Shown: positions 11,616 through 56,728 of the stretch, in pieces
Layout of the letters: the number at the start of each line of letters is the position of its first letter
Numbering within the stretch: position 1 is the first letter of the stretch
Source of the DNA: Fluviicola sp.
Lineage (GTDB): Bacteria > Bacteroidota > Bacteroidia > Flavobacteriales_D > Crocinitomicaceae
DNA: 64,000 bases
Direction of reading: 5' to 3'
NCBI GenBank assembly: GCA_002734085.1
Contig: NVXV01000002.1
Span: forward strand, 1 to 64,000
Translations under genes and position numbers: made by a program
The notes under the pieces: model-generated
Databases searched by the model: none
The model's input: the letters and a program-made list of their open reading frames with translations, nothing else
Told to the model about the DNA's origin: nothing

Positions 11616-11938
11616 TGTTGATATTCTTTAATTCTTTCAGCAAAGAAAGAGTTTAAAGAACCAAACATTATTAAATGGAGGTTAATTCACTACCCCACAT
11701 CCATTCATCACATAGAACCAGTTCATTAAAATGAAAAGACTAATGATTCAATCGTTATACACTTAAATAGTGCTTAACAGATTGATAAACTAAGCTTAAC
11801 TCCAAAGTGATTTTACTTTAAAAATAATCAACTCAGTCAACAGTTATAAAAAATCATAAAATTAAATTTGAATCTTATCTCCATAACAAAGTAGAAACTC
11901 GAATTTGATTATATTTGTAGTATCAAATTTTAAAAAAT
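11616..11938. other. Intergenic region between divergent genes
   Basis: About 320 A+T-rich bases separate the phosphatase gene from the BI-1 gene. I see no RNA gene, repeat or additional reading frame. The only recognisable element is a TAnnTTTG box at 11910-11917. Confidence 0.5.
11910..11917 (+). promoter_or_regulatory. Candidate -7 promoter element of the BI-1 gene
   Basis: TATATTTG fits TAnnTTTG and lies 21 bases before the ATG at 11939, the usual spacing in this window. Confidence 0.5.
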
Positions 11939-12658
11939 ATGGAAGAATATTTAGATGCGCAGTCGGAAACAGTTAATAGCCAAGCCAGAGTAAAAGAGTT
12001 CTTTACCGGTGTTTATACTTTTATGTTTATGGCTCTTTTCATCTCAGGTGCCGTTTCATACTATATGGCTAGTTCAGGATTATTTACTGAATGGTTCATT
12101 AATTACGAAACGCAAAGTATCAGTCCTGTTTTCTATGTTGTAATGTTTGCACCATTGGGTCTTGTCTTATTAATTCAGGCAAAATATCGCTCTTTCTCTA
12201 TGGGAACACTGGTGGCTTTGTTTATTCTTTACTCAGCACTCGTAGGAGCTTCTTTATCTTCTATTTTCTTTGTCTATAGCATGGGAGATATTGCCTCCAC
12301 GTTCTTTATCACTGGAGGTGCTTTTGCAGCGATGGCTATTCTGGGCTATACTACGTCCGTAGATTTATCTAAAATGGGAAGTCTACTCTACATGGCATTC
12401 ATTGGAATTTTTATCGCAGCGATTGTCAACATGTTTTTAGGTAGTTCTTGGCTGGGTTATTTAATATCAATCATTGGAGTATTCGTATTCACAGGACTTA
12501 CGGCCTGGGAAATGCAGAAATTAAAAGCTATTGCTCACGACCCTCAGTTCTCTGATGATGAAAGGAAAAAAATGAGCTTAATGGGCGGGTTAACGCTTTA
12601 TATTCTATTTATCAATCTTTTCTTGTCTTTACTTCATCTTTTAGGAGGACGAGATTAA
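11939..12658 (+). CDS. Bax inhibitor-1/YccA family membrane protein
   Basis: The 239-residue protein has seven hydrophobic helices and the family pattern: MFMALFISGAVSYYMASS, LVGASLSSIFFVYSMGDIAS, FFITGGAFAAMAILGYTTSV and a final FTGLTAWEMQKLKAIAH before the last helix. Bacterial relatives (YccA, BsYetJ) are inner-membrane proteins linked to FtsH control or calcium leak. No partner gene is adjacent. Function in this organism is not known. Confidence 0.9.
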   Translation: MEEYLDAQSETVNSQARVKEFFTGVYTFMFMALFISGAVSYYMASSGLFTEWFINYETQSISPVFYVVMFAPLGLVLLIQAKYRSFSMGTLVALFILYSALVGASLSSIFFVYSMGDIASTFFITGGAFAAMAILGYTTSVDLSKMGSLLYMAFIGIFIAAIVNMFLGSSWLGYLISIIGVFVFTGLTAWEMQKLKAIAHDPQFSDDERKKMSLMGGLTLYILFINLFLSLLHLLGGRD

Positions 12659-12717
12659 TTTTTTTTATTTGGCATAGTTTTCGTAATATTGCTGACAATT
12701 ATTCTAAAACTATTATT

Positions 12718-13401
12718 ATGAAAAAGCACTTTTTATTTGTTGCCTTAGGATCACTTTTGATATTTACTTCTTGTAACAAAGAAGATTCTGACACTGTTGA
12801 TCAAGACAAAATCTATGCATCTTATGTACTTGAATACAATTCAAATCAAGATGTAACCTTCGCTCGTTCCAACTTTCATTTTAGCAATGCCTTTGGTACA
12901 AAGTTAGAGCTTGTATCACCTGCTGAAATAACTGTTGATGGTGATATTATTCCTTTTAAACAAGCCTTGGCTTATTATGAAAAAGAATATAATGGAGTTA
13001 AAAATTCAGGTGATTTCAAATACGTTGATGTAGATGGTAATACTTTTAACAACACTGTTACAATGGTACCTTCGATTGATTTTGATGGTACGTTAGATAC
13101 TATTTCTCGTTCTTCAAACTACATGTTAACATGGGTAGGTGATCCCGTTCAAACTGGTGAAGTTGTTACAGTAACGATTGATGGAGCTGGTGAAAATGAT
13201 ACTCAAATCTTCACTCAGACGGGTGTTGGTGCGACTGATATCAATCTTACACAAAATCAATTGCAGAACTTAGGATTAGAGAACGCTACTTTCTATATTA
13301 GAAGATCAAAAAACATGGATGCTCAGGAAGTAACTAGTGCTGGTGGTAAAGTTATCGCTCGATACGATGGTCAACCTAGTACAGTATACGTTGAACCATA
13401 G
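12718..13401 (+). CDS. Predicted lipoprotein of unknown function
   Basis: The 227-residue product starts with a lipoprotein signal (MKKHFLFVALGSLLIFTSCNKE) with lipobox FTSC. The rest looks like a beta-sandwich, with GEVVTVTIDGAG and QTGVGATDINLTQNQLQNL; I do not recognise a named family. It is followed after 26 bases by a strong terminator, so it is probably transcribed alone. Confidence 0.75.
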   Translation: MKKHFLFVALGSLLIFTSCNKEDSDTVDQDKIYASYVLEYNSNQDVTFARSNFHFSNAFGTKLELVSPAEITVDGDIIPFKQALAYYEKEYNGVKNSGDFKYVDVDGNTFNNTVTMVPSIDFDGTLDTISRSSNYMLTWVGDPVQTGEVVTVTIDGAGENDTQIFTQTGVGATDINLTQNQLQNLGLENATFYIRRSKNMDAQEVTSAGGKVIARYDGQPSTVYVEP

Positions 13402-13426
13402 TTTAACAGATAAATTATTGATAGAG

Positions 13427-13457
13427 AAAGGCGTTCTTAATCGGACGCCTTTTTTAT
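13427..13457 (+). terminator. Terminator of the lipoprotein gene, overlapping the end of waaA
   Basis: Arms AAAGGCGTTC (13427-13436) and GGACGCCTTT (13443-13452) form a 10-bp stem with one G-U pair, loop TTAATC, followed by a T run. The stop codon and last codons of the convergent waaA gene lie inside the loop and second arm. Confidence 0.8.
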
Positions 13458-14660
13458 TGTTTCAAGAATTTGTTTTGTAGCTCCAACCCTACTCTTAATA
13501 AATGTTTTTGTCAATCCTTGGATATCTTCTGAATCGCTAAATTCTTTATACGCTTTTACGAACTCTACGTCGTTCATAATAGAATTCGCTATCCCTGCAG
13601 ATATAAAATCAAATGCCTCTGGAAACTTTTTAAACTCTGGCCCAAAGATAACGGGCAAACCAAATACAGCGGGTTCTAATATATTGTGCAATCCTGTGCC
13701 AAATCCACCTCCAACATAGGCTATAGAACCATATTTATAAGCTTCTGCTAAAACTCCAATGCAATCCAGAATAATGACTTGAGTGTCATCTTGAGGCATG
13801 TTTTCTTCGGATAAATCGGTATACTTTTGATAGGGTACGCTCAATAATGCCTCTATTTCATCAATATGCCTTTTATTCACTTCATGAGGTGCTAGAATAA
13901 CCTTCGAACTAATCGCATTATTATTAATTAATGGAATCAATAAAGCTTCATCATCAGTCCAGGAGCTACCAATTACCAATACTGGTTCATTCGAAAATCT
14001 CCATTTTTCGAAATATCTATTTTTCACATTGAATTCTAATCTATCTGCTACGCGATCATAACGTGTGTCACCTGCCACTACAGTATTATTGATGCCGTAT
14101 CTCTCTAAAAGCACTTGGTTCTCTTCTCGCTGTAAAAACAAACAGTCAAAAGAATGTAGAGCTTCACGAAATTGCTTTCCATACCACTTAAAAAAACGTT
14201 GATTGGAGCGAAATAAAACACTTATACCATATAGTTTAGATCCGCTTTCTTTTGCTTTTCGGATAAAATTCAACCAAAATTCATACTTCACAAAAAAGGT
14301 AGACTTGGGTTGAAAGTGATCAATGAATCTCCTTGCATTACCGGGAGTATCCAATGGCAAGTAAGTAATAAAATCTGCAATTTTATCGTTCTTTTTTACC
14401 TCGTAACCAGAAGGACTAAAGAAAGTAACTAAAATAAAATCATTCGGAAATTCATTTTTCCAGCTTTCGATAACAGGTCTACCCTGTTCAAATTCGCCTA
14501 AAGAAGCACAGTGAAACCAAACGACATTTTGGTCTTTTACATCAGGCAAATGATTCCAGTACCCCCTTCTTCCAGCCACCCATCTACGCGCTTTTTCATT
14601 AAATAAAGCGGCAATATGAATGCCCATACCATAAAGCCGGATACCAAAATTGTACAACAT
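13437..14660 (-). CDS. waaA: 3-deoxy-D-manno-octulosonic acid (Kdo) transferase
   Basis: WaaA/KdtA adds Kdo to lipid A at the inner membrane. The 407-residue protein has the GT30 pattern: WFHCASLGEFEQGRPVIE, LVTFFSPSGYEV, a VAGDTRYDRV segment, VIGSSWTDDE at the domain hinge, LAPHEVNKRHI and YVGGGFGTGLHNILEPAVFG near the donor site. An N-terminal hydrophobic segment anchors it. Length is normal. It starts one base after a barrel protein gene on the same strand, so both are likely in one operon. Confidence 0.92.
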   Translation of the reverse strand: MLYNFGIRLYGMGIHIAALFNEKARRWVAGRRGYWNHLPDVKDQNVVWFHCASLGEFEQGRPVIESWKNEFPNDFILVTFFSPSGYEVKKNDKIADFITYLPLDTPGNARRFIDHFQPKSTFFVKYEFWLNFIRKAKESGSKLYGISVLFRSNQRFFKWYGKQFREALHSFDCLFLQREENQVLLERYGINNTVVAGDTRYDRVADRLEFNVKNRYFEKWRFSNEPVLVIGSSWTDDEALLIPLINNNAISSKVILAPHEVNKRHIDEIEALLSVPYQKYTDLSEENMPQDDTQVIILDCIGVLAEAYKYGSIAYVGGGFGTGLHNILEPAVFGLPVIFGPEFKKFPEAFDFISAGIANSIMNDVEFVKAYKEFSDSEDIQGLTKTFIKSRVGATKQILETIKKASD

Positions 14661-19989: not shown

Positions 19990-20382
19990 AACAAAACAGA
20001 TATACATCTCCCTTCTGATTTGAGAATTTATTATAAAGAATGGAAACCAAAAACTTATCTTTTTGAAGGAGCCGTTGACACAACTTACAGTGGCACTAGT
20101 GTTGGCAAAATTGTAAAGACTGCAGGTCGCAAAGCAGGTATAAAAAAAACAGTTACACCTCACATGTTAAGACATAGTTTTGCCACACACTTATTAGAAA
20201 ATGGAACAGACTTAAGATATATTCAAGTTCCATTAGGACATAATAGTACACGAACAACGGAGATATACACGCATGTAGCAGTGAATAATATAAAAACTAT
20301 TAAAAGTCCTATAGATTTACTAAATTTGGATCAAAACACATATGTTTTTTACACACACGTTACAAGCAACCTAAAAGACTAA
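19990..20382 (+). pseudogene. Tyrosine recombinase, truncated C-terminal catalytic part
   Basis: The frame carries the C-terminal half of a site-specific tyrosine recombinase: [34 protein letters not shown] (box with His and Arg), [15 protein letters not shown] (His and nucleophilic Tyr). The N-terminal SAM-like domain and the first catalytic arginine are missing, so this is not a working enzyme. It resembles the Xer-like integrases common in Bacteroidota and lacks the extra segment that marks classical integron IntI. Its last codons (HVTSNLKD) overlap the GTTACAAGCA boundary of the first downstream cassette, so its original C-terminus was probably replaced by cassette DNA. Confidence 0.8.
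20359..20368 (+). repeat. Cassette boundary core (attI-like or half attC)
   Basis: GTTACAAGCA marks the left edge of the first cassette. Its reverse complement TGCTTGTAAC recurs (9/10) as AGCTTGTAAC at 21083-21092 after the cassette gene. Upstream bases resemble the right arm of the other sites. A second core-like palindrome, GACTAACGTTAGTC, follows at 20377-20390. Confidence 0.65.
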
Positions 20383-26562: not shown

Positions 26563-27771
26563 ATGACAATAGGTTCAGTTTTCTTGTATATTGACCCAGG
26601 AACTGGTAGTCTATTAATTAGTGCTCTCTTAGGTATATTAGCAACTATTTTATACTCTGTTAAAGGCATTTTTTATAAGGCATCATTACTAATCTCTGCA
26701 ACAGGAAAAAAAAACTTGGCCGATTTTTCTGGACAAATTGTGTTTTTTAGTGAGGGCAAAGCATATTGGCGAGTATACAAGCCTGTTATTGAAGCGTTAA
26801 TTAATAGAGAACAAAAAATTATTTATCTATCTGCTGACAAAGGGGATGATGGGTTGCTAATGTCATCTGAATATGTTGAAACACATTATCTTGGTAAGAT
26901 TAATCAAGCTATTTTTATTTTAAATAGGTTAAGAGCAAAAATGTGTGTTATGACAACTCCACAGCTCGATGTAATCTCATTAAAACGCTCAAAACATGTT
27001 GAGCATTATTGTCACATTATTCATTCACCTACAGATATTCATGCCTATAAAAAGTTTGCGTTTGATTTTTATGATTCCGTTTTATGTAGCAGCTCATCAC
27101 AAATAGCTAATTTAAGATACTTGGAGAAGGAACGACAAACTAAGCCCAAACAATTATTTAAAGCGGGGTGTACTTATTACGATGTCTTTAAACCCAATAA
27201 TTTAGAAAAAGGTGATTCTATTTTGCTGGCTCCTACGTGGGGGGATCGATCATTCTTCAAACTTCATGGTAAAGAAATGCTAACCAACCTATTAAATGGA
27301 GGTCATAAAATTATATTTCGACCACATCCTCAATCTTGGATTTCTGATAAAGAATTAATGGCTGATATAGTTTCTTCGTTTGGCTCTAATCCCAATTTAA
27401 TTATTGATAAAGAAACAAGTGGAGAAAAGAGCATACTCAATTCTAAGTTATTGATATGTGATATTACATCAGGGATGTTGTTTGATATGGCTTTCGCGTA
27501 TAAAAAGCCAGTCGTAGCTATTAATTTTGAATGGGCAGATGGTGGTTACGAAGCCTCTGATCTAAATAGTGAAACTGCAGCAATCGCCTTGTTAAAAGAT
27601 GTTGGTGAAATAGTTAATGTTGCAGACATGAGAAGCATCTCAGAAACGATTAGCAAAAACACGCATAAAGTTATAAGTAAGGAGATAATAAGTAAACACA
27701 TCTTCCATTTTCAAAATTCGGGTAAGATAGCAGCTGAACAAATAGTATCCATTTTTAAAGCGATAGAATAA
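26563..27771 (+). CDS. CDP-glycerol glycerophosphotransferase-like (TagB/TagF family) protein
   Basis: The 402-residue protein starts with a membrane segment and the motif YIDPGTGSLLISALLG, found in many cell-surface polymer proteins. The body resembles TagB/TagF transferases: SPTDIHAYKKFAF, LLAPTWGDRSFFK, FRPHPQSW and ICDITSGMLFDMAFAYKKPV with the nucleotide-binding His and Ser/Thr. Such enzymes add glycerol-phosphate from CDP-glycerol. Teichoic-acid-like polymers are unusual in Bacteroidota, so another donor is possible. Its stop codon overlaps the ATG of the next gene, so translation is coupled. Confidence 0.75.
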   Translation: MTIGSVFLYIDPGTGSLLISALLGILATILYSVKGIFYKASLLISATGKKNLADFSGQIVFFSEGKAYWRVYKPVIEALINREQKIIYLSADKGDDGLLMSSEYVETHYLGKINQAIFILNRLRAKMCVMTTPQLDVISLKRSKHVEHYCHIIHSPTDIHAYKKFAFDFYDSVLCSSSSQIANLRYLEKERQTKPKQLFKAGCTYYDVFKPNNLEKGDSILLAPTWGDRSFFKLHGKEMLTNLLNGGHKIIFRPHPQSWISDKELMADIVSSFGSNPNLIIDKETSGEKSILNSKLLICDITSGMLFDMAFAYKKPVVAINFEWADGGYEASDLNSETAAIALLKDVGEIVNVADMRSISETISKNTHKVISKEIISKHIFHFQNSGKIAAEQIVSIFKAIE

Positions 27772-30383
27772 TGTTTTTTATAGATTTTTTAAAATATATA
27801 CTCGCGTTTTTCTACAGCTTAACTGATAGTTATGGTTTTTCCATTATTTTACTCAGCCTAGCGGTAACCATTATGATGTTCCCTCTGTTTTGGATAGCTG
27901 AGATTATTCAAAACAAGGAAAGGGCCAGAAAGGCAAAAATGCAACCCGCTCTTGATAAACTGAAGGACGTTACCAACAAACGAGAAAAGTACTATTACAC
28001 ACAAAGAATTTATAGGCAATATAATTATTCACTTCTCTATTCATTGTCAGGATTATTAGGCTTGGTTATACAAATCCCATTTTTCTTGGCTGCTTACTGG
28101 ATGTTAATAGAATTTACACCGATTGAGGGTGTTTCTTTTGGTCCGATTAAAGATCTATCTAAACCAGATGGACTATTGTCTTTCAACGGACTAACAATCA
28201 ATATCCTACCTTTTGTAATGACAGTTGTCAATTTATTTGCTGCTTTTTTATATGCGAAAAACCTAGATAAAACGCAGCAAAAACAACAGATAGTCATTGC
28301 CCTAGTCTTTTTAATACTGTTATATAATCTTCCTTCAGCACTCGTACTTTATTGGACAATGAATAATGTTTTTGCAATAGGAAAAAACGGGTTAATTGAT
28401 AAAGTATATCCTGTTAAAACCAACTTTAATCATGATCGATATATATTGTTAAAAGATTGTCTTTCTTGGTTAAAAACACATCATTCAAAAATAATATTTG
28501 TGTTATTAACCTGGTCTGTTTACTTCTTAATATTAAACGCTTTCTATAAGGCTACTTTGGGTCCCTGTTTAACAACCACAATGTCACTCTTTGTTTCATT
28601 CTTTTTTTTAGAGGTCGTTTGCGTTTTGTTGTTACTTTTTAAACACAAAGAGAAAAAACAACTAAAACGAAAAATGATAATAACCTATTTCCTTCTTCAC
28701 ATTCCGCTCGTCAGTTTTTTCATCTTCATGAAATTTTCGAATACTTTCTATATATCAGGTTCTTTCGTTTTGACGTTGTTCTCAATAGTTCTATTCCTCT
28801 TTATCATTGTATTTTTGACGCAAGGGCGCTCCGTTAAGGTGGACAAACCCAATTACAATCGTAAATCAAGGACCAAAATTCTCTACTTTGTCGCAAGTGC
28901 TTTAATAGTAATCGCTCCTCTCATTCAGTACTACCTAAACAACACCATATATTTTTCAACTTCATCAGCTTTCCTTTATTTCATTGTCTTTTTGGGAGCT
29001 CCTCTTTTACTTGTTGCAGTAACAAACTATTTAAATAAAAGCAATTCAACCTACCTTTACTTTGGAGTATTCATTGCACTATTTTTTACATTATACACAT
29101 TACCTATAATAACCAGTCTCACTTCATTAATTGCGGAAAATAATTTTTCGGTGCATATAGTTTCTTTATTGATAACAAGCCTTGTATTTATCTGGCTCTT
29201 TTATAATTCAAAAATTACAGTTCTTTTATTTAGCATATTCCTTCTTGTAGGCTCGACTATTCAAGTTGTAAACGTTTCGTACCAAGATCTGCCAGTTAAG
29301 TTAAGTACAGCGAAATCTGACCTCTATAGTCACTTATCATCAAAGGAAATAAAAAGGAGTCCAAATATTTATTATTTACTATATGATTCATACATTAATG
29401 AAAACTTAATGGCTTTATACGATATTGATAATTCTGAACAAATGAATTATCTGAGAAGTAATAATTTTCAAATTTCTGAAAAAGTGTATTCTACTGGTTC
29501 CGGAACGCTAATAACGACTTCGCACTTATTGGATCTCTCAACCGATGGTATTAAGGAACAATATTCAAATATTATAATGGGTAATTCAACCGTAGACAAC
29601 TTGCTCCAAAAAAATGGATATGAGACACATTATATCGTTGGTGAGTATTTCATAAGGGGATTCAACGTCCCTTTTGGTGGAGACTACTTGAATAATGAAA
29701 GTGCTACTTCTCTATCAGAAAAGAAAAGTGAACATTCAAACAACTCAGTGAAGACAGTTATGTACAGTATTTTGATGGGAGAATTTAAGTTTAATAATGA
29801 GTTTTTACTTGGGAAAAAGACAGAGGAGGTAAAAGAAGAACTCAAAAGGTATAATATCGCTAACTTCAGAAAAAAACCAAAGTTTTTGTTTTATCACTCA
29901 AATTATCCAGGACATGGAAATGGTAATTGTCACCCAAATGAAAATGAATTATATGCAAAGAATATACAACTTGCAAACAAGATGATGAAAGAAGATGTTG
30001 AAAGTATATTCTCCACTGATACGAATGCAGTTATCATAATTGCTGGTGATCATGGAGTACATAGAAAAGGAGATTGTCAGACAAAATTAAAAGGTTATCA
30101 GGAGAATGAAATTAAATCCGAACATATTCTAGATAATTATGGAACTTTTTTAGCGGTAAAATACCCAGATCATTATAAACAGAAAGAAATAATATTACTA
30201 CAGAATGTATTCATTAATATTTTTTCATATCTCTTTGACCTTAATAATCTTAACGATTATAAGCTTCCCTCAAAAACGATTGGAGGATCTCTACCAAAAG
30301 GAAGTATCAGTAATGGAAAAATAACTTATGGTGCTGATAAAGGTAGTAGCCTTGACGAAATATTCTCTAAAGGTTCAGAATAA
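27771..30383 (+). CDS. YidC/Oxa1-like domain fused to a sulfatase-fold transferase domain
   Basis: The 870-residue protein has three parts. Residues 1-220 resemble YidC/Oxa1 (YGFSIILLSLAVTIMMFPLF, GLVIQIPFFLAAYWMLI, LYNLPSALVLYWTMNNVFAI). The arginine of the insertase groove is replaced by Thr33 (AVTIMMFPL where the family has VR). Residues ~235-510 form about nine helices. Residues ~528-870 match the alkaline-phosphatase/sulfatase fold (NIYYLLYDSY, STGSGTLITTSHLLDL, IIIAGDHGVHRKGDC) as in LtaS/OpgB-type phosphoglycerol transferases. It is translationally coupled to the transferase-like gene. A role in building or decorating a phosphoglycerol-like surface polymer is inference. Confidence 0.75.
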   Translation: MFFIDFLKYILAFFYSLTDSYGFSIILLSLAVTIMMFPLFWIAEIIQNKERARKAKMQPALDKLKDVTNKREKYYYTQRIYRQYNYSLLYSLSGLLGLVIQIPFFLAAYWMLIEFTPIEGVSFGPIKDLSKPDGLLSFNGLTINILPFVMTVVNLFAAFLYAKNLDKTQQKQQIVIALVFLILLYNLPSALVLYWTMNNVFAIGKNGLIDKVYPVKTNFNHDRYILLKDCLSWLKTHHSKIIFVLLTWSVYFLILNAFYKATLGPCLTTTMSLFVSFFFLEVVCVLLLLFKHKEKKQLKRKMIITYFLLHIPLVSFFIFMKFSNTFYISGSFVLTLFSIVLFLFIIVFLTQGRSVKVDKPNYNRKSRTKILYFVASALIVIAPLIQYYLNNTIYFSTSSAFLYFIVFLGAPLLLVAVTNYLNKSNSTYLYFGVFIALFFTLYTLPIITSLTSLIAENNFSVHIVSLLITSLVFIWLFYNSKITVLLFSIFLLVGSTIQVVNVSYQDLPVKLSTAKSDLYSHLSSKEIKRSPNIYYLLYDSYINENLMALYDIDNSEQMNYLRSNNFQISEKVYSTGSGTLITTSHLLDLSTDGIKEQYSNIIMGNSTVDNLLQKNGYETHYIVGEYFIRGFNVPFGGDYLNNESATSLSEKKSEHSNNSVKTVMYSILMGEFKFNNEFLLGKKTEEVKEELKRYNIANFRKKPKFLFYHSNYPGHGNGNCHPNENELYAKNIQLANKMMKEDVESIFSTDTNAVIIIAGDHGVHRKGDCQTKLKGYQENEIKSEHILDNYGTFLAVKYPDHYKQKEIILLQNVFINIFSYLFDLNNLNDYKLPSKTIGGSLPKGSISNGKITYGADKGSSLDEIFSKGSE

Positions 30384-31667: not shown

Positions 31668-32582
31668 ATGAACTTTATTCGTCACTTCGTATTAGGGATA
31701 AAAAGTTACTGGAAAGCGGTAAGTTATATACGTGAACACAAGCTTTATTGGTATTTGCCTATTCCTGCAGCTTTAATGTTGATTATTTACTACGTAGGAA
31801 GCGAAATTGCCTCATGGCAAGCATCATGGGATCCTCAATTAGGGTGTTTAGAATGTTCGAATATGAACGAGACCATTTGGTTTATGGTAAAAATGCTTTT
31901 AAGTATTTCATTAGGATTAGTTTTAATGAAATTCGCCAAATACATTGTCGTAATTGTCCTCTCCCCCCTTCTTTCTATACTATCTCAATCGGTAGAGAAA
32001 AAGTTAACCAACAATAAATACCCGTTCAGTCTGCGCCAAACTTTGCACGACGTGCGTCGGGGAATTCGTATTGCATTGAGAAATGTGATGTGGGAATACA
32101 TTTTCTTTTTGGTTATCTTGATCGTTTCCGCTTTCGGATGGGAAGAAGCGCATCAATCTCCAGTATTCTACCTCACATTTGTAATCGGCTTTTTCTATTA
32201 TGGATTTAGCTTTATCGATTACATCAATGAAAGAAGAAGACTTGATATTGATCAAAGTATTCATTTTATGAGAAATCACCGAGGTTTAGCAATTGCAATT
32301 GGAACCATTTATTCCATATTAATACTTGTCCCAGTAGATTTAGGTGAAATGACAAACTTTACTGGTTTTTTAGATCACCCATTTGAAACTATGGGTACGG
32401 TTTTACTTCAGCTTGTTTTGTGGTTTTTAGCGTCCTCTGCTCCTATTTTAGCGATTGTTGCTGCCACATTGGCCATGCACGAACTAGTTGATTTAAACAC
32501 AAATAAATTCTCTGTAAAAGCCGCTGGGAATACAGATGTTGATTCCGATCAATACGAAGGTGAGCAAGACCAAGAAAATTAG
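31668..32582 (+). CDS. EI24 domain membrane protein
   Basis: The 304-residue protein contains several long hydrophobic segments and the EI24/CysZ-like pattern ILSPLLSILSQSVEKKLTNN, FLVILIVSAFG, FSFIDYINERRRLDIDQSI and ASSAPILAIVAATLAMHEL. CysZ relatives transport sulfate or act as membrane channels; in Bacteroidota the role is uncertain. A hydrophilic acidic tail (DVDSDQYEGEQDQEN) ends the protein. Confidence 0.8.
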   Translation: MNFIRHFVLGIKSYWKAVSYIREHKLYWYLPIPAALMLIIYYVGSEIASWQASWDPQLGCLECSNMNETIWFMVKMLLSISLGLVLMKFAKYIVVIVLSPLLSILSQSVEKKLTNNKYPFSLRQTLHDVRRGIRIALRNVMWEYIFFLVILIVSAFGWEEAHQSPVFYLTFVIGFFYYGFSFIDYINERRRLDIDQSIHFMRNHRGLAIAIGTIYSILILVPVDLGEMTNFTGFLDHPFETMGTVLLQLVLWFLASSAPILAIVAATLAMHELVDLNTNKFSVKAAGNTDVDSDQYEGEQDQEN

Positions 32583-55735: not shown

Positions 55736-56728
55736 TGATTCCCCCACAAAATACCAGCACGTAAATAGAATAAGTTCTGCCGGTCTAGTTTTGAAGAAAA
55801 AAGCAAGATGAATATACTAAAATTTATGGAAGAGTTTCCTACAGAGCAAGCGTGTAAAGATCACTTCAGAAAACAAAGAGAACAGGAAGGACTTAAATGT
55901 AAAAAGTGCGGGTGTACCAAGCACTACTGGCTAAAAGCTAAATATCAGTGGCAATGCAGCGAGTGTGATTTTAGAACTACATTAAAAAGTGGTAGCATTA
56001 TGGAAGGTTCAAAGGTTGATATACATACCTGGTATAAGGCCATGGCTTTTATGACTTACAGTAAAAAAACAATCTCAGCCGCAGAGCTTCAGCGTCAGTT
56101 AAATCATCCAAAATATGATACCGTTTGGCGTTTAATGCACAAAATACGTTCAGCCATGGGAAAGCGGGATGCCCTCTACCAGCTGGAGGGGGCAATTGAG
56201 TTTGATGAAGGCTATTTTGAAAGAGCTACCTCTGAAAAGGTTAAACTAAAGAGAGGGCGTGGCAGTCAAAGGCAAATTAATGTTGCAGTAATGGCTGAAT
56301 CAACACCCCTTGAAGATTTAAATACAGGAGTGAAAACTAGTCAATGTAGGTATTATAAGATGAGGGTATTAACTGATCATAAAGCAACAGCAATTAATAA
56401 TACAGTTAAGGAAAACTTTAGTGAAAGCAGTATTGTATTTTCTGATAAGAGTACCAGTTATGTAGATATTGCTGATTATGTTGATATTCATGTCACTGAG
56501 AAATCAGATAAAAATACAACAAAGACAACCCTTAAATGGGTGCACATTGCTATAAGTAATGCCAAAAGAACTTTGCTGGGCGTTTTCCATAAAATAAAAG
56601 GGAAATATTTACAAAATTACCTCAACGAATTTTGCTATAAACTAAATCGCAGGTACTTTGGTGAGAAGGTTTTCGATAGATTAACGTTAGCCGTTGCTAA
56701 ATCCTACTGGTAACATTTGGGGGAATCA
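55736..56728 (+). mobile_element. Complete IS1595-family insertion sequence
   Basis: The left end TGATTCCCCCACAAAATACC and the reverse complement of the right end TGATTCCCCCAAATGTTACC form imperfect terminal inverted repeats bounding 993 bases with one transposase gene. The right end is identical to window positions 1-93. The expected 8-base target duplication is not seen (AGGATTAC left, AAATTGTT right), suggesting rearrangement or deletion after insertion. Confidence 0.85.
55808..56713 (+). CDS. IS1595-family (ISXO2-type) transposase
   Basis: The 301-residue protein has an N-terminal zinc ribbon (CKKCGCTKHYW and CSECDFRTT), then the ISXO2-like catalytic domain with acidic residues in AIEFDEGYFERA and VLTDHKATA and the N/K/H part KWVHIAISNAKRTLLGVFHK then KGKYLQNYLNEFCYKLNRRY. 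All motifs are intact, so the enzyme is probably active. Start ATG at 55808 follows the inverted repeat by 50 bases. Confidence 0.92.
   Translation: MNILKFMEEFPTEQACKDHFRKQREQEGLKCKKCGCTKHYWLKAKYQWQCSECDFRTTLKSGSIMEGSKVDIHTWYKAMAFMTYSKKTISAAELQRQLNHPKYDTVWRLMHKIRSAMGKRDALYQLEGAIEFDEGYFERATSEKVKLKRGRGSQRQINVAVMAESTPLEDLNTGVKTSQCRYYKMRVLTDHKATAINNTVKENFSESSIVFSDKSTSYVDIADYVDIHVTEKSDKNTTKTTLKWVHIAISNAKRTLLGVFHKIKGKYLQNYLNEFCYKLNRRYFGEKVFDRLTLAVAKSYW

Follow-up and report, generated by a model that had tools for sequence, protein, structure and literature searches.

What does a domain of the YidC/Oxa1 insertase family do when it is joined, within one polypeptide, to a sulfatase-fold transferase? 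The question is raised by an 870-residue protein encoded in a 64,000-nucleotide stretch of DNA from Fluviicola sp. (contig NVXV01000002.1, positions 1 to 64,000; hereafter the window), whose gene directly follows that of a TagF-like transferase. An earlier reading of the letters alone (the sequence-only reading) had recognised the fusion and regarded its Oxa1 part as a membrane platform for a polymer enzyme. The answer that we tentatively favour, and to which we give just short of an even chance, is that the two genes specify a surface-tailoring machine, in which the TagF-like enzyme would load a lipid, the Oxa1 module would receive the lipid and pass it on, and the transferase would deliver to an acceptor at the cell surface.

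The fusion occupies one uninterrupted open reading frame (ORF) with an ATG start and zero internal stops (27771–30383, + strand), while the reverse strand of the same interval is closed by many stops. Residues 21–209 match the Pfam family 60KD_IMP (E 1.5e-24, 87.3 bits against a cut-off of 35) and residues 20–209 the NCBIfam model TIGR03592 (95.1 bits against a cut-off of 84.3). Taken alone, the window's protein gave zero matches to sulfatase models at E ≤ 1; among 45 aligned family members, the window's included, all 45 match 60KD_IMP and 38 match Pfam Sulfatase (E ≤ 0.01). In an AlphaFold2 model of moderate overall confidence (mean predicted local distance difference test, pLDDT, 62.9) the Oxa1 part is good, with ten-residue blocks of residues 1–210 at 75–95, and confidence is poor for the central helices and for portions of the C-terminal domain. 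Model residues 1–219 resemble solved YidC structures (Z 17.4–19.2), as expected if the N terminus is of Oxa1 type, and residues 524–870 resemble YejM, MCR/EptA, LtaP and sulfatases (Z 14–16). The same layout is kept in 102 non-identical full-length members, again counting the window's, some of them in complete chromosomes, including those of Haliotispira prima (locus L016) and Breznakiella homolactica (L040). An artefact, or the joining of separate genes by assembly error that the sequence-only reading had itself named as a risk, is thereby rejected: intact fusions are common, and naturally split versions exist too.

Between the two domains lie nine hydrophobic segments, the number that had been estimated earlier, and under a crude hydropathy rule the count is odd in 84 of the 102 members, the window's among them. 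Since YidC cores end on the inner side of the membrane, nine segments following such a core would bring the last domain out on the opposite side; the transferase domain is thus predicted to lie on the outer face.

The loss of the groove charge, read earlier from the window's protein alone, extends to all the members seen. T33 (LAVTIMMFPL) aligns in phmmer with the Arg of E. coli YidC (FIVRGIMYPL), and this position is occupied in the 102 full-length fusions by Thr (58), Ser (29), Asn (8), Gln (3), Phe (1) or Cys (1), with two gaps and no charged residue. The 17 canonical YidCs taken from fusion-holding genomes carry Lys (13), Arg (3) or Tyr (1) there, Lys being the residue in the window genome's own copy. 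To describe the lost residue as an arginine that YidC needs was therefore an overstatement; the groove Arg is essential in Bacillus and dispensable in E. coli. A canonical YidC accompanies the fusion in 17 of the 18 genomes searched, the one in which it was not found being a metagenome-assembled genome (MAG). The predicted membrane helices of the fused domain keep a set of polar positions, with T151, N198 and N199 conserved in 100 of 100 members, N154 and T196 in 99 and Q101 in 98. When 33 fusion and 17 canonical Oxa1 domains from 25 chosen loci were placed in one tree (all trees described here were built on chosen rows), the two sets split at a branch supported at 100/100, and the branch leading to the fusion side is long (1.7). 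It is plausible that the fused Oxa1 domain has lost protein insertion.

At the other end of the protein, D539, T579, H715, D760 and H761 are invariant over the 102 members except for one Ser at 579 and one or two gaps, which substantiates the transferase-type active site that had been read from the motifs. The roles of this D, T, H, D, H set are assigned by analogy with LtaS/EptA-type transferases, and by that analogy the transferase half is probably of LtaS/EptA type with a complete active site. An ordinary formylglycine sulfatase was rejected, because the nucleophile position holds Thr in the window (Thr 100, Ser 1, gap 1 of 102) and not the Cys or Ser that would be modified to formylglycine. 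OpgB, a further sulfatase-fold membrane protein to which the transferase had been likened, is not among the structure matches. The window's transferase half shares 33% identity with that of a Neptunomonas fusion (L004) and 11–18% with the other 40 aligned rows. A stand-alone relative of it is encoded on a Leptolinea plasmid (L119 5734–7467; 577 residues, annotated as hypothetical). This protein keeps the active-site residues and is 26% identical to the window's transferase half over 498 columns; it has no detectable Oxa1 part and no Pfam match at E ≤ 0.01, and no TagF-like gene is annotated near it.

The TagF-like gene ends within the first codon of the fusion gene, in a TAATG with a one-base overlap, from which we infer that the two are translationally coupled. 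To survey this arrangement, a genome collection was scanned by similarity to the fusion and the best 80 of 173 relatives were taken, giving 74 loci (75 with the window's). A TagF-like gene is present in 59 of the 75, the nearest same-strand pair overlapping in 28, lying 0–59 nt apart in 20 (so that 48 are within 60 nt) and further apart in 11. The tight pairing read from the window is borne out in most loci. In the genomes of the 16 loci whose fetched stretch lacks one, a TagF-like match occurs elsewhere in 14 (one of them partial) and is absent from 2. A Fisher p of 2e-29 obtained for the loci disregards relatedness, and we give it no weight. The predicted structure of the window's TagF-like protein (pLDDT 88.9) has a GT-B fold, and its top Foldseek match is TagF (3l7k, E 1.1e-9). 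Glyphos_transf is matched by 59 of 60 family members (E ≤ 0.01), a family profile retrieves Cps3D, TarL and TagF from the PDB, and the helix at the start of the protein is conserved, with Y9, D11 and P12 invariant in 60 rows.

The two genes also occur together when genomes are drawn without regard to the locus. Among 148 evenly drawn genomes of the spirochaete class to which the Treponema genome of locus L053 belongs, 28 match both profiles, 1 matches the fusion only, 0 match TagF-like only and 119 match neither, counts that are to be read with the reservation that the TagF-like profile was built from fusion-locus genes and distant solitary TagF-like genes could escape it. In the sole fusion-only genome (L122) the gene runs off the contig end. 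Of the 29 fusion-positive genomes, 21 have one match covering both halves, and in 8 the match is split, partial or cut. By record name, hosts of the fusion are Bacteroidales, other Bacteroidetes, Treponema, other spirochaetes, Clostridia, Lachnospiraceae, one Chloroflexi MAG and Neptunomonas. Close to the window it is rare: the fusion was found in 1 of 100 genomes of the window's family, and the fusion or the TagF-like gene in 1 of 296 evenly drawn genomes of its phylum, taken to be Bacteroidota, each time the window's own. The fusion count for the phylum is a lower bound (few candidates were scored per genome, with a long profile), and the TagF-like search was concordant with it. Plasmid records (n = 72,556) held no TagF-like match at E ≤ 1e-20 and one transferase-only relative of the fusion; viral contigs gave five pattern matches and zero relatives.

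The 74 loci contain 115 fusion frames, partial ones included, and 63 TagF-like genes, often one TagF-like gene with two or three fusions, as if one donor served several acceptors. Multiple copies were also seen in individual genomes. Lachnospiraceae XPB1003 (G105, locus L034) has eleven Oxa1-domain matches, ten of them in fusion-length frames. Treponema putidum has tandem TagF-like/fusion pairs (L066 6860–9564; L075 5167–8029 and 8026 onward), in which several fusions come as two ORFs, one for the Oxa1 part and one for the transferase, whether by frameshift, phase variation or true gene splitting.

We clustered 579 neighbouring ORFs at the relatives' loci and counted the clusters over the 74 loci; cluster names rest on one scanned representative each, or three (Pfam) for the 12-locus LicC/PntC-like cluster, and near-copy loci (L062/L074, L066/L075 and L007/L011) slightly inflate the counts. 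The largest clusters are a fusion of cytidylyltransferase and phosphoenolpyruvate (PEP) mutase and a phosphonopyruvate decarboxylase (each in 22 of 74 loci), and glycosyltransferases and sugar-nucleotide genes rank next. The other head-group clusters are a PsrA-like iron alcohol dehydrogenase (15), a LicC/PntC-like-aminotransferase (12), a PntC-aminoethylphosphonate (AEP) transaminase (7) and a TagD-like protein (3). The representatives of PEP mutase, decarboxylase and AEP transaminase score above the cut-offs that NCBIfam sets, whereas those of the PsrA-like dehydrogenase (175 against 424 bits) and the TagD-like protein (75 against 165 bits, TIGR01518) fall below them. At least one head-group cluster occurs in 40 of the 74 loci, and 39 of these are among the 58 loci with a TagF-like gene; phosphonate genes occur in 25, and phosphonate or LicC-type genes in 37. 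The phosphoglycerol-like polymer of the sequence-only reading is consequently too narrow a description of the head group, since the relatives' genes are mainly for phosphonates, then LicC/PntC-like and only then TagD-like.

The PEP mutase genes adjoin the pair in Bacteroidales, in Neptunomonas and in several Treponema loci. Where Bacteroidales and Neptunomonas loci have these genes, they run PEP mutase, decarboxylase, dehydrogenase, TagF-like, fusion; the spirochaete loci L058, L062, L064 and L074 show the arrangement fusion, TagF-like, PEP mutase, decarboxylase, PntC-transaminase, and other loci differ. An ORF at L065 10576–12615 and eleven similar ones encode a LicC/PntC-like nucleotidyltransferase fused to a class I/II aminotransferase, the product of which is perhaps an amino-alcohol phosphate. 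The window genome was searched for comparable donor genes. A phosphonate pathway was rejected there, as PEP mutase was absent in a PF13714 search (0 of 1 genome, against 9 of 14 control genomes; PF13714 also covers isocitrate-lyase relatives). Of its four CTP_transf_like genes, three resemble, by eye, NadD, CoaD and an HldE-type adenylyltransferase, so that no TagD was recognised among these three; the fourth, a 346-residue frame, was not read.

The trees of the separate parts disagree. In the transferase tree, which also included 30 other fusions, the window's half groups at 100/100 with those of L003 and L004 and with the Leptolinea plasmid protein. A single clade of L001, L003 and L004 is rejected for the TagF-like proteins in the approximately unbiased (AU) test (p 0.00017, 28 rows), and also for the Oxa1 domains, with a modest p of 0.011 for a group picked after the trees were seen. 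L001 and L003 stand instead with L016 (Haliotispira) in the TagF-like tree (100/99) and, concordantly, with L013 and L016 in the Oxa1 tree (95/84). Since the Oxa1 and TagF-like trees agree and the transferase tree differs, the TagF-like protein seems to have moved together with the Oxa1 domain, and at least one exchange of the transferase half seems to have taken place.

The same partnership is seen where the Oxa1 protein stands free. Two genomes of the spirochaete class encode free-standing Oxa1 proteins of the fusion clade beside a TagF-like gene. In L120, the gene for a 229-residue Oxa1 protein shares one base with the TagF-like gene, and upstream lie a distinct 721-residue transferase and what looks by eye like a TagD-like frame. 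In L121 (G546, 11640–13725, − strand), a TagF-like body devoid of its helix is followed by a 93-residue frame with the DPGTGS helix and then by a 230-residue Oxa1 frame; a separate 739-residue transferase lies about 6.5 kb off, with a nucleotidyltransferase-like frame (by eye) between. A third candidate, L123, is doubtful, the adjoining frame being cut by the contig end and weakly matching (E 1.7e-7) the latter part of another fusion.

How, then, might the pair work? The computations give the fusion with its conserved active site, the uncharged groove, a predicted topology, the close pairing, the presence of CTP-activation genes (CTP, cytidine triphosphate) nearby in many relatives and the agreement of the TagF-like and Oxa1 trees. 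TagF acts inside the cell on CTP-activated donors; with a donor enzyme of this kind inside and the transferase outside, something must cross the membrane. The pairing of TagF-like protein and Oxa1 domain, the charge-free polar groove and the lipid scrambling known for YidC lead us to propose a lipid-passing role for the Oxa1 module. A single membrane helix would anchor the TagF-like enzyme to the inner face, where the enzyme would load a lipid, or a carrier linked to one, with a phospho- or phosphono-group activated by CTP. The Oxa1-derived module, its groove charge lost and its polar uncharged residues kept, would take this lipid, and the head group would cross the membrane. The outer LtaS/EptA-type domain would then take the group on Thr579 and pass it to a glycan, lipid or protein acceptor, an exchangeable transferase setting which. 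We infer the lipid intermediate, the flipping step and the acceptor.

A wider claim, which we consider possible with the balance tilted against it, is that an Oxa1-superfamily module has given up protein insertion and now carries a dedicated lipid-linked head group, be it phosphonate, phosphoglycerol or amino-alcohol phosphate, across the membrane for a transferase that is either fused to it or encoded next to it. TagF-like protein and Oxa1 module would form the core that stays the same, and the transferase could be swapped and would determine the acceptor. Such a machine would supply the export and attachment step that is missing from many bacterial phosphonate-tailoring pathways, and would be a new kind of envelope-decoration system. 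The pair may thus be a missing step of bacterial surface tailoring. If so, it would be a natural case of an insertase fold redirected to another cargo, and would make lipid scrambling by insertases testable as an evolved function.

Several results weigh against lipid passing. The activity of the pair is proposed from sequence and models, the structure model of the fusion is of only middling confidence, and 18 of the 102 members have, by the crude rule, an even helix count that would place the transferase inside. The window's TagF-like protein scores 18.0 bits against Glyphos_transf, under the cut-off of 22.1, and VIA-align ranks UDP-GlcNAc (uridine diphosphate N-acetylglucosamine) 2-epimerases (Z 21) over TagF (Z 18) for its model. 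The loci were chosen by similarity to the fusion and include the near-copies listed above; 16 of 75 lack a TagF-like gene in the fetched stretch and 34 of 74 lack any head-group cluster. In the window genome, PEP mutase was not found, a PntC query gave a weak match only (E 3.3e-4), and no clear dedicated donor maker was recognised, with the one 346-residue candidate unread. The modest Oxa1 p value and the after-the-fact choice of the tested group count here too, and the separate DPGTGS-helix frame of L121 suits a docking role no less than it suits the movement of lipid.

Docking is the alternative in which the Oxa1-derived domain is an assembly scaffold that holds or inserts the YIDPGTGS helix of the TagF-like protein and so unites both enzymes, with no lipid moved. 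It corresponds to the platform of the sequence-only reading. We regard it as less likely than lipid passing and yet as a serious rival; the L121 frame led us to raise it slightly and to lower the lipid-passing proposal from an even chance to a little below. It would account for the grouping of TagF-like proteins and Oxa1 domains in the trees, for their adjoining even where the transferase is separate, for the conserved helix start, and for L121, where the helix is a frame of its own between TagF-like body and Oxa1 gene; the groove-charge loss is consistent with it as a sign of lost insertion. Docking alone, however, does not account for the conserved polar positions in the membrane helices (T151, N198, N199, N154, T196 and Q101), and offers no explanation of how a group made inside reaches a domain outside. 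It is improbable that the domain still inserts a small number of client proteins, for instance the helices of its own transferase or that of the TagF-like enzyme: the YidC fold is retained and not all known members of the family strictly need the groove charge, but a canonical YidC is kept as well in 17 of 18 genomes, no charged groove residue occurs among 102 members (2 gaps), and the branch to the fusion side is long.

The version of the sequence-only reading, in which TagF and an LtaS-like polymerase jointly make a phosphoglycerol polymer, appears distinctly improbable. TagF as top Foldseek match and LtaP among the transferase's structure matches would suit it, as would the stand-alone TagD-like gene of three loci (below the TIGR01518 cut-off) and the similar frames seen by eye in L120 and L123. 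Phosphonate or LicC-type genes nevertheless occur much more often (37 of 74 loci), the CTP_transf_like genes of the window genome included no recognisable TagD (one of the four not read), and polymerisation is a supposition. A broken or decorative fusion with no function is hardly credible; a few split or truncated copies, as in Treponema putidum, would be expected of one, but active site and Oxa1 core are near-invariant across very distant members and the fusion co-occurs with the TagF-like gene.

Within the window, the methyltransferase, TagF-like and fusion genes (Table 1) are the sole ORFs of at least 100 residues that match L003 at E ≤ 1e-10. Upstream, at the edge of a series of short ORFs (about 20–31.7 kb), lies a 120-residue ORF (20020–20382) that encodes the C-terminal portion of a phage-type integrase (PF00589). 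Given that the cassette comprises the only L003-matching ORFs, the three genes may sit in a variable region. An EI24/CysZ-type membrane protein (PF07264) is encoded downstream of the fusion (31668–32582), and a zinc-ribbon transposase-like protein was recognised by eye only at 55808–56713.

Table 1. Coordinates in the window of the fusion gene, its domains and key residues, and its partner genes.
Feature	Position	Strand	Basis
Oxa1-like/sulfatase-fold fusion protein, 870 residues	27771..30383	+	ORF, Pfam/NCBIfam matches, predicted structure
Oxa1/YidC-like domain, residues 1–215	27771..28415	+	Pfam 60KD_IMP 1.5e-24; model against YidC Z 17–19
T33, opposite groove Arg of E. coli YidC and Lys of the same genome's own YidC	27867..27869	+	Alignments
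Membrane region, nine hydrophobic segments, residues 216–520	28416..29330	+	Model helices and hydropathy count
LtaS/EptA/sulfatase-fold domain, residues 521–870	29331..30380	+	Model Z 14–16; relatives match PF00884
D539 (LLYDSY), probable metal ligand	29385..29387	+	Asp in 100/100 members with a residue there, 2 gaps
T579 (GSGTL), probable nucleophile	29505..29507	+	Thr 100, Ser 1, gap 1 of 102
H715, probable active-site His	29913..29915	+	101/102, 1 gap
D760-H761 (GDHG), probable metal ligands	30048..30053	+	Each 101/102, 1 gap
TagF-like transferase, 402 residues, N-terminal membrane helix YIDPGTGS, GT-B fold	26563..27771	+	Profiles, predicted structure
TAATG, stop of TagF-like gene overlapping fusion start by one base	27769..27773	+	Sequence
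Class I methyltransferase, 7 nt upstream of TagF-like gene; same trio in L003	25926..26555	+	Profile and comparison

A search of the open-licence literature returned no paper on an Oxa1/YidC-sulfatase fusion or on the TagF-like/fusion gene pair, and the part of a YidC review available to us (PMC7618853) mentions a proposed scramblase role and no Oxa1-transferase fusion. With the YidC/Oxa1/Alb3 insertases (PF02096, TIGR03592) the fusion shares domain family, predicted YidC fold and a Y-W/Y...N motif at the end of the core; it differs in being uncharged in the groove, on a separate side of the tree, fused to a transferase and co-resident with a canonical YidC. LtaS, EptA (MCR) and YejM likewise have a multi-helix membrane part, an outer-face domain and the D, T, H, D, H site, whose roles we presume to be the same, whereas the fusion adds an N-terminal Oxa1 module and a TagF-like partner, and its donor is probably not plain phosphatidylglycerol or phosphatidylethanolamine. 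The TagF-like protein is similar to TagF, TarL and Cps3D (PF04464) in its GT-B fold, its family's Glyphos_transf match and its conserved RPHPQ and SDxS segments. Unlike them it is short (about 400 residues), with one N-terminal YIDPGTGS helix and no second domain, and the similarity is weak.

A further related system is Lic/Pnt tailoring (LicC, PntC, LicD; Rice et al. 2019, PMC6697681), in which phosphocholine or aminoethylphosphonate is activated with CTP for attachment to the surface. PntC has been characterised there, including Tde1415 of T. denticola, and PntC-transaminase and PEP mutase-cytidylyltransferase fusions also adjoin the relatives of our fusion. The same paper calls the steps after carbon–phosphorus bond formation enigmatic and suggests LicD-like transferases or glycosyltransferases for them; TagF-like protein and Oxa1-transferase are a different set of proteins. 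Finally, E. coli YidC and other Oxa1 proteins are reported to scramble lipids in vitro (PMC10491306), and simulations place the path in the insertion groove. The fold is of the same Oxa1 family in both cases; lipid scrambling is a side activity in those insertases, and here it would be the main role that we propose.

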